The notes under the pieces: generated by a model
The model's database searches: none
Told to the model about the DNA's origin: nothing
What the model saw: only the letters and a program-made list of their open reading frames with translations
Translations under genes and position numbers: made by a program
Shown: one piece after another, positions 21,907-28,386 of the stretch
How the letters are laid out: each line of letters opens with the position of its first letter
Position numbering within the stretch: position 1 is the first letter of the stretch
Source: Aciduliprofundum sp. MAR08-339
Lineage (GTDB): Archaea > Thermoplasmatota > Thermoplasmata > Thermoplasmatales > Aciduliprofundaceae
Assembly (NCBI RefSeq): GCF_000327505.1
Contig: NC_019942.1
Location: 868,001 to 932,000 of the forward strand
Reading direction: 5' to 3'
Length of the DNA: 64,000 nt

Positions 21907-24900
21907 ATGAATGTGAAGGGGAGAGTCTATAAAAAAATATTCAAGAAGGAGAAAGGCGTATCTGAAGTTCTCGGAAGCATACTTGTATTGCTCATAACGG
22001 TAATGCTGTTTTCAACAGTTTTCTATTATGTGGGTACCATGCCAACACCCCAGCCCAAGATTTATGCCCAGTTTGATGCTACGTTACACATAGTACCCAA
22101 CGGTACTGGAGGATATTGCTTGAATATCACAGTGAGGAATGTTGGGGGAGAAAGTTTGGTGGATTGGAGAACAATGTTTATTGTTGTAATTGATTTCACA
22201 GCCAAGCAGCATATGTTATCTGAACCTCATTTTTCAAAACAGCCCTTTGATAAGGATGGAAAGTTCTCTCAGGGTGAGAGTTTTTACTACAATTCTTCTT
22301 GGGATGGATGGAACTGGCCCCATTTGGAAGATACGAAATACTTAGATGTTGGAATCACCCTTATGGATAAAAACACAGGAAGCATAATATGGTCATCAAA
22401 GCTTCAGGGCAGAACGAGTTTACCCCCCGTACTCGTTGGCGTCACAACCACCCCATCCATACCAATTCTGGGTAAGCCAGCAACATTCAAGGCAATTATT
22501 TTCAATCCAAATACAGGAGGAGATGTTGGAACCTACAATGTAACCCTTGATTTTTCCCAAACGATACTGAAATACAGCATTGAAGGATCTCCAATAAAAC
22601 CAATGAACTACTCCGGAAATAATGCATTCACCACCCTCGTAAGGTTCAAAACAAATGATTCTCTGAACATTTTGAGGCCCTACAAGATTAAGGTATGGGT
22701 GAACAATGGATATAGTAACATAAGCTACTCAACAAACATCTATGTCAGCAGAGGGACTGGAAATAAAAATCCTGATCTCTATATAGATTCAAAGCTTGTA
22801 ACCCTTTCAACGCTGTCTCCAACCCATGGAAATAATGTTCAGGTATCCGTAACCGTTGAAAATCTTGGGGGTACGGGGGCAAAGTTCCAGTTAAGGGTCC
22901 TGGATCAGTATCCAGGATACAGAAGTGCATCAAATCCCTCGGGAGAAATTACAATAAAGACTAATCTTGGATCCTCGGAATATCTACCTGATAGGGATAC
23001 GACCTACACAATAGCCGCCGCAGGCCAGACAACAATCTCCTTTATCTGGGAGGATGTAGGGGCCAATTCTCAGGGAAATAATGTGGTTTCCAAAGTTTCG
23101 GGAACGCACCATTTGATATTCCAGATCATAAACATCACCCCTGTGGAAAATCCAAATAAATATCCGGACACGGCATCTGTAAGCCTCACTGTGTTACCAA
23201 GCATACTTCTGGTGGATGACGATGGATATGCCGAGGGATCTCCTTGGGATACAAGCAGGTACTACAAGTATTACCTTGATACTGCTGGATACAAGTACAC
23301 TGTGGATAAGAGTAGCATTGATATTGGGCAGTTGAAAAGGGATGTTGATTCTCATGATCTGGTAATATGGGAAACTGGATACAAGGAAAATCCAATCACG
23401 TCAGCTCAGGCATCCATACTTGAAGATTTCGTATTCAACAGGGGTGGCTCCCTTTGGCTAATAAGCCAAGAGATCAGCCAGGGGAATTTACGAACCATTT
23501 TAGCGGATTCCTATCTCACACCAAAGAGTACCAACATGGGGAACATAAAAGGCATAGAGAATCCTGCAATAAATCTGACACTCTCAAATGGAAGTTTGAT
23601 AATGGATGACCTAATGAATAGGGATCATGCCCCAAACGGGAACGATACCATTTACCTCTCAAATATGGGATCTTATAAGAAGTTCATAGAGGCAAAGGAA
23701 GAAGGGTCCACGGGGAACCGGTATTTTCCAGTAGGTATATACAAGGATTCCTCCTCTACTGGAGGAGGGAAAATAGTGTATCTTGGATTTGAACTTTCAA
23801 GGGTCAAGCATTACTATGCTCAAGATTTCATCGCTTACAGGATTCTGAAATGGCTTGCCAATATTTCGGGTAGAGCTGGAAATGACCTGGCTGTTGAGGA
23901 TATGATAATAGAGCCCAGAAATCCGCTTTACAAGGAGCCTGTGCATATTAGCGTTGTGGTTTCAAACAATGGGGGCACAGCACTATCCAGCGAGGTTTTG
24001 CTTGAGGTTGACGGAGCGCCATCACTTAACATAAATACCACCAATCCAAATTCAACAGGGGTGATACCTCCAGATGGCGGCTTTGTTGTCGTTAACTTTA
24101 CTTGGATTCCAACCCAACCCGGTAAGCATGTGCTCACAGCCATAGTGGATCCATACAACACAATAGAGGAGACAAACGAGGAAAATAATGTCATAAATAC
24201 AGAAATAGTTGATACAAACGTTTTTGTGCATTATTCAACTCTCATAGTTTACAACAGTTCTCAAACAAATTCTATTAACGAGAAAAATGCTCTTGTGGTA
24301 ACGTTGCAGCATCTAGGATACAGGTACAAGGTCATTGATTCGCATTCAGCAAATCTACCCTACGGCTACGATGATGGAACATATTTTGCACAATATAACC
24401 TGGTCATATGGGCAGATGGAAAAATAGGAAAAGGTGACATAAAGGCCATTATAGATTCCATGAGCAACAATCCCAATACGGGGCAACTCTTCATTGGAAA
24501 TGACATAATGGCGTATATTGATGATAGTTCAAAATTGAAGAATTATCTTGAAATTACCTCAATAAATCTCGTGAATGTGAATAAAAAAAGTGTAATATAC
24601 GGCATAAACAATGTTAAGAGTGAAACAAATGGGATGACTCTTATCCTGCAATCCACCACCATGTACAACATAACAGCCACAGGTGCACAGGGATTATTCC
24701 ATCTAACAAAATCCACTGATACTGGGTATATGACACTGGAAAAACTGGCTTCTCAATACTCAAACACAATATCGGGATATGGATATGGAATAGTCTCCAA
24801 AACACCCGTGAGTGGAAGCAAGTTTGGCATAATCCCGTTCAAATTAGAGAACATAGCGGGAATATTTGGACTGAAGGCTGCAAATATTGCAAAGCCCTAT

Positions 24901-27900
24901 GATCCAGCTCCGCAGGGTCAGGCATGGCTGATGTATCGTCTCTTCAGATGGTTTGGATATGTGAAAGACACTCCTGAGTTTGCCACATTTACCTCGGACA
25001 TACAGATAATCTATGGAGGAAATAATCCAAATCTACCTCCCATAATTGGACGCTCTTATATGCTGAGAACCAAAGTATACAATTACGGCTCCGTTGGAGC
25101 CAGTGCAGTTGTGCGATTCTACGATGATTATGAATGGATAGGAAGTAAAACAGTATACGTGCCTGCAAATAATTATGCTCAGGTGGAGATACAGTGGACT
25201 CCCATGTTTGCAGGGCCAGCCAGGCATATAAGGGTAATTGTTGATCCTCTAAATGAGGTAACCGAGACTCAATTTAATGGTACATCTAATAATGGAAAGG
25301 AAATATTCAACTTCAACAATGAGGCTATAAAGACGGTTACGGTTTACTATTTCTGGGATAATATGGAAAATGGAGCAGGAAACTGGGTGCACGAGGCTAC
25401 TGTCATGGATATAAACGGGGAGAGCCCCCTGAATTTTGTAAATAGGAAAGATGTGAGTACAAATGTGATAGGTGATTGGGACTGGAGTTTGAGCGGTAGC
25501 ACAGACAGCAACGGAAATTATCACCAAGATGAAAATACTTTTTACACAAATGATACAAAAGTACTGAATTTCACTGGTGGTGCACATCATTCTGCTCCTA
25601 ATGCATTCTGGATGCCTGAAGCTCCAAGAATTAACAAGAGAAAACCCATTGATGTGATATTTGTGATCGATACCTCTGGAAGTATGAATAGTGTGGTTAG
25701 GGGTGCCACAGTAGGAGATGTAAATGGAGATGGTAAAGCGAATACAAGGATAGACGTGGCCATACAAGCAGCGCTAGATGCTATAAAACTACTTGGACCA
25801 AATGATAGAGTGGCCATCTTCTCATTTGATACTCTTGGAAATAAATGGTGGAAGCCTACACTCAAATTTACTTACGTTACAAAGGAGAATCTCCCAACTA
25901 TAGAAGATACTCTAACAGGTCTTAGGGCTTCTGGAGGCACGCCTTTATACGATACCTTGTCATGGGCTGTGTATTATATGGACAAAAAATCCGCTGACAA
26001 TGTTAACAGAGAGAATGCAGTAAGAGGTATACTTGTTTTAACGGATGGACTCAGTAATTCAGACATAAGGGGTGTCAGAGACGGAAGGCAATTTTATTAT
26101 GCACCAGGTACGGGATATGATGAAGAAGAGACGGGAGTTATTGAAAATTATGTTAAATACAAATCCAGTGGATTGCTTAAAATACCCTATAATCTTATAG
26201 CTATATCCATAGCCCCAGATGGCTGGGATGGTAGATTATTCCCCATAGGTAATTCATCCCAAGGAAGAATATCTATGGGATTATTTGAAAATGATCCCGT
26301 GGTTATCCAAGAGGTATTTACTATGTTTGTACAACTTCTAATGCAGCAAACAACCGGTGGCTTGAGAGCCACACCTCCGATAGGATCTTATAAAAATGAT
26401 CTTAATCTACAGGGAAGTCTAACTATCCAAGGATTGGGTGCAGTTGTCTTTTCTGATGGATTCAGGAATTACACAAATTATCCTGGAGATGCAAGTACCC
26501 CCGGATTTCTTGGGAAATGGAAAGAGAGTGGATTTACCATAGCTTCAACAAATGATGGAAATTACTATTATAAAGGACAGTCAGACGGAGCGAGCGATGA
26601 GTACTGGGTTGCACAAACAGATACCTCCGGTGCATATCTCCAACATACGGTGTATCCTTCCAAGGTGCTTAAATACCATTATCCAGGTACATACACAATT
26701 AAAGGTGCTGAAATAAGATTTTGGGTTGGAGATCATGGTGATGTAGGGGGGTACTTTTTTTATCCGGATGGTTCTAAGGCCACAATCAACATTTATATAG
26801 ATGGTCAATTAATATCCTCAGAGAAATTTGATGATTCGTCAGGGAATAATCCAGAGGAATACTTTACTGTGCAGCTACCGGTAAGTGTGTATTCTTCCGG
26901 TGGATCATTTGACTTCAAGATAGAAATTTCTTCCATCTCAGGTACTATCGGAATTGACGACGTCATGGTTGTGTATTACATTGATTACACACCACCCACC
27001 TCCAACTCTGGGGGTGGAGGTACAATACCTAGTGACTATTCAAGTGTGGTAAATACAGCCACAAATTACACCTATCTCATAACTCCACCTGTGGATGTAA
27101 GTGGTGCTCAGAAAGTCTTGTTGAGTTTCTGGACCAAGTACTGGATGACTCAGGGTACGAACGGTGGAATAATGTATATGTGGGGTTCAAATGATGAAAC
27201 ATCTTGGACATGGGATCAGACTCACAGGTATTACATTATGCCCAGTCAATCTTATACGGGAAATCTGGATCCTAGGTACTTTGACTCAAACTGGGCCAAT
27301 AATGTGATTACCAGTGGTGGTCCGGTTATAAATGGACGGCAAAACGGAATGGCAGATGCGACCTATACTGGCTCAGGTACAACAGGTTTGCCTATGTGGT
27401 GTTTCAATGGTAGAAGTGGCTCTGGTACATTTGGCTGGGATTATATAGAAGTTGATCTAACCCATTACATCCGGGAATCCGGATTCAAGTATATACGAAT
27501 AGTGTTCATGCTTGTTCAGTTTGGTGGTGTTGGACCAAATAGTGGCTGGAACCCTGCAATGGGCTGGTACCTGGATGATGTGAAAATAAGTGTGACTTCA
27601 GATGGAAATAGAGATCTTTGGCAACTTCATAATTTTGGAGGTACCGGAGCAGAGAAGGCCCATTCCGGAGATTACGCTTGGGCGTATGGAGAGTCAAATA
27701 GTAATTGGGCATTACCTAAGGGAGTGGACTCATCGCTGATCACAAAACAGATAGACCTTACAAATGCTAGAACTGCCAGACTTTCATTCTGGATAAGGTT
27801 CAATTTGAATTCTGCGGCCGGTGTTCCACCTGCCACGGTGCGTGTAGAAGTGAGCGATGACAACGGCATGACGTGGCAATCAATAACCTATGGTGTGCGT

Positions 27901-28386
27901 ATAGGGTGGGGTGCTAGTGGCACTGGAAGTATGGCAGGAACAAGTGCAAATAACAACTATGGCTGGGTCAACTCTGGAACCTTGGCAAGAATTAACTGCG
28001 ATCTGAGTGGCTGGGCCGGAAAAAGCATTATGATAAGATTCCGTGTGGTGACAAATGCCACAGAGTATCCAACATATGCAAATAGCAATGATCCTTATGG
28101 GGTATTCATAGATGATGTCGTGGTATCCGGAGAGGGCTATGCTTCAACTATACCTGTATCTCAAAGTGATTATCTATGGGATGGGGGCACCTTAACAAAC
28201 GTAAAATCACCGCATAAAATACCAAATAAACAGAGCAATAATATCAAAGATAAAAACATAGAAATTAACATACATCTCAGAGGTGAGAGACCCGATCACC
28301 ATCACGTAGGACCAATTGAAATGATGCACGCTCTGCCTATTATACAGCCATTTCTCATTAGAATTGCAGTTGTCAGAAATTTTTAA
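21907..28386 (+). CDS. Giant pilin-like multidomain surface protein with VWA domain
   Basis: 2159-residue exported protein. The N terminus is an archaeal type IV pilin leader: basic residues, KEKG with probable prepilin-peptidase cut after Gly17, then VSEVLGSILVLLITVMLF. After it come CARDB/Ig-like repeats (about 290-430, 655-780, 1035-1146), two alpha/beta domains resembling ThuA/amidotransferase-like folds (about 434-650 and 778-1030), and a split jelly-roll-like domain (about 1147-1240 and 1705-1890). Between its halves lie a von Willebrand A domain with MIDAS Asp1255-x-Ser-x-Ser and a lectin-like module (about 1503-1700). A second jelly-roll-like domain covers about 1899-2085. There is no C-terminal anchor, so attachment is likely through the N-terminal helix. 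Function may be adhesion or pilus-associated; this is inference. Confidence 0.8.
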   Translation: MNVKGRVYKKIFKKEKGVSEVLGSILVLLITVMLFSTVFYYVGTMPTPQPKIYAQFDATLHIVPNGTGGYCLNITVRNVGGESLVDWRTMFIVVIDFTAKQHMLSEPHFSKQPFDKDGKFSQGESFYYNSSWDGWNWPHLEDTKYLDVGITLMDKNTGSIIWSSKLQGRTSLPPVLVGVTTTPSIPILGKPATFKAIIFNPNTGGDVGTYNVTLDFSQTILKYSIEGSPIKPMNYSGNNAFTTLVRFKTNDSLNILRPYKIKVWVNNGYSNISYSTNIYVSRGTGNKNPDLYIDSKLVTLSTLSPTHGNNVQVSVTVENLGGTGAKFQLRVLDQYPGYRSASNPSGEITIKTNLGSSEYLPDRDTTYTIAAAGQTTISFIWEDVGANSQGNNVVSKVSGTHHLIFQIINITPVENPNKYPDTASVSLTVLPSILLVDDDGYAEGSPWDTSRYYKYYLDTAGYKYTVDKSSIDIGQLKRDVDSHDLVIWETGYKENPITSAQASILEDFVFNRGGSLWLISQEISQGNLRTILADSYLTPKSTNMGNIKGIENPAINLTLSNGSLIMDDLMNRDHAPNGNDTIYLSNMGSYKKFIEAKEEGSTGNRYFPVGIYKDSSSTGGGKIVYLGFELSRVKHYYAQDFIAYRILKWLANISGRAGNDLAVEDMIIEPRNPLYKEPVHISVVVSNNGGTALSSEVLLEVDGAPSLNINTTNPNSTGVIPPDGGFVVVNFTWIPTQPGKHVLTAIVDPYNTIEETNEENNVINTEIVDTNVFVHYSTLIVYNSSQTNSINEKNALVVTLQHLGYRYKVIDSHSANLPYGYDDGTYFAQYNLVIWADGKIGKGDIKAIIDSMSNNPNTGQLFIGNDIMAYIDDSSKLKNYLEITSINLVNVNKKSVIYGINNVKSETNGMTLILQSTTMYNITATGAQGLFHLTKSTDTGYMTLEKLASQYSNTISGYGYGIVSKTPVSGSKFGIIPFKLENIAGIFGLKAANIAKPYDPAPQGQAWLMYRLFRWFGYVKDTPEFATFTSDIQIIYGGNNPNLPPIIGRSYMLRTKVYNYGSVGASAVVRFYDDYEWIGSKTVYVPANNYAQVEIQWTPMFAGPARHIRVIVDPLNEVTETQFNGTSNNGKEIFNFNNEAIKTVTVYYFWDNMENGAGNWVHEATVMDINGESPLNFVNRKDVSTNVIGDWDWSLSGSTDSNGNYHQDENTFYTNDTKVLNFTGGAHHSAPNAFWMPEAPRINKRKPIDVIFVIDTSGSMNSVVRGATVGDVNGDGKANTRIDVAIQAALDAIKLLGPNDRVAIFSFDTLGNKWWKPTLKFTYVTKENLPTIEDTLTGLRASGGTPLYDTLSWAVYYMDKKSADNVNRENAVRGILVLTDGLSNSDIRGVRDGRQFYYAPGTGYDEEETGVIENYVKYKSSGLLKIPYNLIAISIAPDGWDGRLFPIGNSSQGRISMGLFENDPVVIQEVFTMFVQLLMQQTTGGLRATPPIGSYKNDLNLQGSLTIQGLGAVVFSDGFRNYTNYPGDASTPGFLGKWKESGFTIASTNDGNYYYKGQSDGASDEYWVAQTDTSGAYLQHTVYPSKVLKYHYPGTYTIKGAEIRFWVGDHGDVGGYFFYPDGSKATINIYIDGQLISSEKFDDSSGNNPEEYFTVQLPVSVYSSGGSFDFKIEISSISGTIGIDDVMVVYYIDYTPPTSNSGGGGTIPSDYSSVVNTATNYTYLITPPVDVSGAQKVLLSFWTKYWMTQGTNGGIMYMWGSNDETSWTWDQTHRYYIMPSQSYTGNLDPRYFDSNWANNVITSGGPVINGRQNGMADATYTGSGTTGLPMWCFNGRSGSGTFGWDYIEVDLTHYIRESGFKYIRIVFMLVQFGGVGPNSGWNPAMGWYLDDVKISVTSDGNRDLWQLHNFGGTGAEKAHSGDYAWAYGESNSNWALPKGVDSSLITKQIDLTNARTARLSFWIRFNLNSAAGVPPATVRVEVSDDNGMTWQSITYGVRIGWGASGTGSMAGTSANNNYGWVNSGTLARINCDLSGWAGKSIMIRFRVVTNATEYPTYANSNDPYGVFIDDVVVSGEGYASTIPVSQSDYLWDGGTLTNVKSPHKIPNKQSNNIKDKNIEINIHLRGERPDHHHVGPIEMMHALPIIQPFLIRIAVVRNF

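Follow-up and report, generated by a model that had tools for sequence, protein, structure and literature searches.

A putative pilin-anchored adhesin of Thermoplasmata, probably with a VWA head in a loop of a split jelly-roll domain

In the bacterial adhesins RrgA, GBS104 and Mfa5, a MIDAS VWA domain is nested in a sandwich domain of the stalk; in Mfa5, it is flanked by strands B and C of D2 (PMC7835359). The Streptococcus sanguinis protein PilB combines a class III-type pilin with an adhesive MIDAS VWA, and its sister PilC carries a concanavalin-like module (PMC8179133), while in Caulobacter CpaL a MIDAS VWA is fused to what is predicted to be a minor pilin (PMC12607857). At the tips of the Myxococcus Kil/Tad pili, interchangeable variable domains are thought to determine the target (PMC12075869). 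In a census of archaeal pili, VWA proteins were treated as regulators and not as pilin modules (PMC4858521). Nested VWA heads are already known from Ig-like domains of bacterial pilus adhesins; the archaeal jelly-roll version described here appears to be new, and a literature search of incomplete coverage returned no VWA nested in a jelly roll, no archaeal proteins of this kind and no cassette slot.

The window analyzed here is a 64,000-nucleotide stretch of Aciduliprofundum sp. MAR08-339 (NC_019942.1, positions 868,001 to 932,000). The gene under study and its features are as follows (window coordinates, protein residues).

21907-28386, + strand: gene of a modular pilin-like surface protein of 2159 aa, one ORF
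21952-22182, + strand: archaeal type IV pilin N-terminus, residues 16-92 (Pfam Pilin_N 31.1 bits, cut-off 25.2)
23881-24198, + strand: CARDB stalk domain, the better of two, residues 659-764 (Pfam CARDB 76.2 bits in two stretches)
25336-25626, + strand: half 1 of the split jelly-roll/MAM-like domain, residues 1144-1240, last strand HSAPNAFWMPEAP (profile match to the empty-site domain)
25627-26376, + strand: inserted VWA domain, residues 1241-1490 (Pfam VWA_2 and VWA; leads the insert in all 46 filled relatives)
25669-26046, + strand: MIDAS residues D1255, S1257, S1259, T1345 and D1380 (sequence and HMM alignment)
25717-25755, + strand: DVNGDGKANTRID, an EF-hand-like metal-loop sequence beside the MIDAS, residues 1271-1283 (sequence)
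26425-27024, + strand: second inserted beta-rich module with linker, residues 1507-1706 (alignment)
27025-27600, + strand: half 2 of the split domain, residues 1707-1898, from IPSDY..NYTYLITPPVDVSGA (profile matches)
27613-28155, + strand: uninterrupted tandem jelly-roll domain, residues 1903-2083 (Pfam)

The protein, its anchor and the split domain

Orthologues from the same genus align with the protein over its full length (73, 70 and 68%), its closest named relatives belong to Aciduliprofundum and to DHVE2 archaea, and no paralogue was detected elsewhere in its own genome. Prepilin cleavage is expected after G17, between KKEKG and VSEVLG, and the GVSEV-type N-terminus was found again in nearly all complete relatives. 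Like a modular type IV pilin of the PilB kind, the protein combines a class III prepilin signal and a hydrophobic helix at the N-terminus with non-pilus modules (VWA, CARDB, MAM-like). A prepilin peptidase and type II/IV secretion (T2SSE) ATPases are encoded in the genome; within the window, no pilus genes adjoin the gene. At the other end of the protein, the C-terminal tail (residues 2086-2159; 28162-28383) is unconserved even within the genus, and many relatives end directly after the tandem domain, without such a tail, which is perhaps a read-through extension.

The initial annotation had proposed that a block separates two halves of one domain. The motifs on which it relied were correctly read and placed, all of them in one open frame: YYFWDNMENG at 25345-25374 (residues 1147-1156), HHSAPNAFWMPEAP at 25585-25626 (1227-1240) and VVNTATNYTYLITPP at 27046-27090, with DLWQLHNFGG at 27613 and DDVVVSGEGY, extending to 28140, in the tandem domain. 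Pairwise comparisons and profiles of 13 rows were suggestive only, being too shallow for half 1, which was resolved by class-wide profiles. For this survey, 400 genomes of the class were searched with a split-domain profile, which gave relatives in 44, and all ORFs of the fetched loci were scanned with profiles of both halves, the VWA, the second module and the tandem domain. Most of the relatives come from metagenome-assembled genomes (MAGs).

Profile comparison recovered one domain of about 285 residues in two parts (1144-1240 and 1707-1898), with 466 residues between them. Half 1 matched the first part of the domain found at empty sites with 99.6% probability (E 8e-24), and half 2 matched the empty domain with 100% (E 4e-48) and the tandem domain with 97.3% probability. 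When the halves were joined in a profile built from 46 proteins, 234 of 238 columns aligned with the empty domains (100% probability, E 1.4e-61). The alignment of the joined halves with the tandem-domain profile (97.1% probability, E 5.4e-11) spanned the junction, starting in half 1 at HSAPNAFW (AHHSAPNAFWMPE facing KAHSGDYAWAYGE) and ending at the DDV strand (WYLDDVKIS facing VFIDDVVVS). The observation of two halves separated by the block was confirmed, the decisive evidence being the comparison with relatives. The similar start that had been noticed in the tandem domain holds from HSAPNAFW onwards; the extreme N-terminus (YYFWDN..NW) has no detectable match there.

The tandem domain itself scored just over the cut-off for Reelin_subrepeat-B (27.7 bits, cut-off 27) and just under that for InhA-like_MAM (24.4 bits, cut-off 26.9). 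Since the joined halves of the split domain gave no Pfam match, its kinship to the reelin and MAM families rests on the profile comparison with the tandem domain; half 2 of the relatives gave weak InhA-like_MAM matches only. The exact site of the insertion was taken from a natural empty junction, that of L111, which reads HYSNPRSYWMPETP-SDDNSD-IPEGY..RYRYLTT. It puts the block between P1240 and I1707, so that the block is best placed at residues 1241-1706 (25627-27024).

If the block lay between two small independent domains, relatives without it would simply carry the same two domains side by side. Half 1 alone, with no detectable match to the tandem domain (E 0.29), would suit such an arrangement, as would the absence of confident packing of the halves in AlphaFold. 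Two runs with 17 rows (residues 1130-2090 of the window protein, and the VWA-only relative L037) gave low-confidence models (pLDDT 58 and 67, pTM 0.51-0.52), too weak to reveal how the halves pack. However, half 2 aligns with the tandem-domain profile only from column 53 of 219, about one quarter in, and thus begins mid-domain, without the first strands. Furthermore, the joined profile crosses the junction from HSAPNAFW, and the order and close spacing of the halves are kept wherever the block is absent. Two separate domains are therefore improbable, and a single domain interrupted by the block is the reading retained below. The Foldseek matches of both models include reelin repeats, PilB, SpaC, PitA and GBS104, the last three being matched by the VWA-only model.

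The inserted head

The VWA_2 match of the inserted domain (38.5 bits) is over the Pfam cut-off. D1255, already noted in the initial annotation, is the first MIDAS Asp, and S1257, S1259, T1345 and D1380 make the motif complete. The MIDAS is complete in 43 of the 51 VWAs that could be scored, and seven scorable relatives lack at least one of its residues; since these residues are lost in some, metal-dependent adhesion would not be universal in the family. The losses fall mainly in one group, listed as including L036, L092, L093 and L111, where a VWA still occupies the slot. Beyond the VWAs of the window type, the EF-hand-like loop DVNGDGKANTRID occurs in just a few others.

A separate beta-rich module does follow the VWA, as had been described. 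The term 'lectin-like' is unsupported, as this module matches no lectin family and no Pfam family at all. It is missing in L037, and in other relatives MAM, Big_5 or other Ig modules stand in its place.

The composition of the block was compared with that of the rest of the gene. Its GC3 (0.31, against about 0.38-0.41 in the flanks) is low yet within the range of the gene, and 18% of windows of equal length are equally odd in synonymous codon use; no clear foreign signature emerged, the block remaining within the gene's own spread. A recent horizontal gain of the whole block by this genome from a distant donor would account for the lower GC3. It is nevertheless most improbable, given this ordinary codon usage, the same VWA at 61-74% in the same-genus orthologues, and the occurrence of the insertion throughout the class.

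Empty sites and exchanged heads across the class

Both halves were found in 50 ORFs, and without exception the order was half 1, half 2, tandem domain. The gap between the half profiles is bimodal: 28-88 aa in four ORFs, all of which are devoid of a VWA, and 273-1125 aa in 46, with none between. In these 46 proteins the inserts occupy the same single site, and a VWA is the first element every time, either alone or followed by a module of the window type, by an InhA-like MAM, by three or four Big_5 repeats or by other Ig modules. A further insert of about 200 aa, distinct from the first, was seen within the start of half 2 in L030, L034 and L052, and also in L016, L053, L054 and L090, with the strand TPxxRV..LSFW apparently duplicated on either side of it.

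The site is empty in seven homologues (L018, L019, L020, L048, L049, L095 and L111), in three of which (L018, L020 and L049) half 1 is too diverged for scoring. On the unrooted flank tree of 53 proteins, strongly supported branches impose a minimum of three changes on the seven, and their union in a single clade was rejected (p 3e-40). Five of them stand apart from all other proteins, and L095 and L111 lie within filled groups. The tree reads most simply as an old insertion followed by two later losses, in L095 and L111; as the root is unknown, this direction is inferred. The comparison with paralogues lacking the block, which the initial annotation had called for, yielded natural empty sites, two of them amid filled relatives. 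L095 and L111 each adjoin another family member that does carry a VWA. Members of the family are often arranged as pairs of tandem genes with differing inserts (L083, L084, L085, L086, L095 and L111).

Exchange of the head is visible at the DNA level between the orthologues L037 and L031, downstream of which 6 kb are syntenic at 89%. DNA identity reaches 93-98% in half 1 and 96-100% over most of half 2, whereas it is mostly 46-67% in the VWA region, and L037 lacks the second module. The switches in identity preserve the reading frame and coincide with domain edges, one where PSAYWLPE ends and the other close to SGNTTLSFW. A second mosaic is L030. Its flanks resemble those of L025, the second copy present in its genome, more closely (72/63/74%) than those of the window (59/54/62%), whereas its VWA is closer to that of the window (65%) than to that of L025 (38%). 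In agreement with this, the head and flank trees conflict: the flank clade is incompatible with the VWA data (p 1e-14), as is the VWA clade with the flank data (p 3e-77); the clades were picked after viewing the trees, which makes these p values optimistic, and the margins are large. The VWA clade of L031 and L037 was rejected marginally (p 0.05), so that this case rests on the DNA profile. L025 and L030 agree at 98-99% over the initial ~180 nt of the region compared and at about 50% beyond; the near-identical stretch looks like a gene-conversion tract.

L031, L037, L025, L030 and others come from MAGs, and chimeric assemblies could in principle mimic a cassette exchange. Such an artefact would hardly place its switches in frame and at domain edges, nor leave 6 kb of syntenic DNA downstream at 89%, and the mosaics recur in independent MAGs (L030/L034 and L025/L033, 92-98% in both cases); we consider it quite unlikely. 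As read from these sequences, heads have been swapped between flanks and the head is exchangeable. The empty sites, including those of paralogues in a filled clade, and the exchange between near-identical flanks together upheld the insertion of the block into a loop of one domain.

Proposed role and relation to known systems

Taken together, these data are probably best explained by a modular stalk, anchored through its pilin part, in which a loop of the penultimate jelly roll carries a MIDAS VWA as a binding head, that is, by a putative adhesin. The stalk would consist of Pilin_N, CARDB, other modules and two jelly rolls of the MAM/reelin type, with the VWA head and the second beta-rich module in a loop between two strands of the penultimate one. 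The halves would fold together around the insert, holding the head at two points, with force passing through two strands. Since both of its ends would be held in a stalk domain, the head could be exchanged or lost with the stalk unaffected. The MIDAS may bind a divalent metal and a ligand on a partner cell, a mineral or a matrix, and through its pilin N-terminus the protein would sit in or on the membrane or a type IV filament. The completeness of the MIDAS in most scorable relatives and the pilin-type N-terminus make the adhesin role plausible.

The same nested architecture could instead serve surface-coat assembly or force sensing, without adhesion to foreign ligands. VWA domains of bacterial pilins, such as CpaL, have been proposed as mechanosensors (PMC12607857), and an N-terminal signal by itself is no proof of a filament. 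This alternative is less likely, since a divergent, exchanged head on conserved flanks fits a change of ligand better than a conserved role in assembly.

Under the adhesin reading, these archaea seem able to alter their attachment target while the stalk is left as it is. It is a serious, if tentative, possibility that Thermoplasmata retain a dedicated cassette slot, in which homologous recombination within the conserved flanks repeatedly exchanges and removes heads, perhaps driven by viruses or partner cells. If so, archaeal filaments or cell surfaces would have a means of diversification akin to the variation of adhesins or receptors. The natural empty, VWA-only and multi-module versions, together with the exchange, show how heads arise, disappear and are swapped, and mark out a loop tolerant of very large inserts. 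They also provide testable candidates for the attachment targets of deep-sea and other Thermoplasmata.

An unrelated archaeal stalk has the same nested-head design as bacterial pilus adhesins. As in RrgA, GBS104 and Mfa5, the VWA is nested, here at the level of sequence, between strands of a beta-sandwich stalk domain, and the MIDAS is complete. In those adhesins, however, the host is an isopeptide-bonded domain of the Ig/Cna type and the fimbriae are sortase-assembled or of type V, whereas here a jelly roll, a pilin-type anchor and a variable multi-module insert are found in an archaeon. Since the host domain aligns with a tandem domain of the reelin/MAM type, the protein would work like these adhesins without being a member of their family. 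The tandem domain, like several of the insert modules, has the fold of the reelin subrepeat and the InhA-like MAM, Pfam families which are themselves plain, without a nested VWA. With PilB, which is also a structural match, the protein shares a class III-type pilin N-terminus and a MIDAS VWA, but the VWA of PilB is un-nested, a short loop joining it to the preceding pilin module, in a protein of 454 aa as against 2159 aa. In CpaL the nesting is reversed, with the VWA enclosing a beta-rich region; in the present protein a beta-rich domain encloses the VWA. Finally, the Kil/Tad tips vary between paralogous tip complexes, and here the exchange of cassettes takes place inside one domain.
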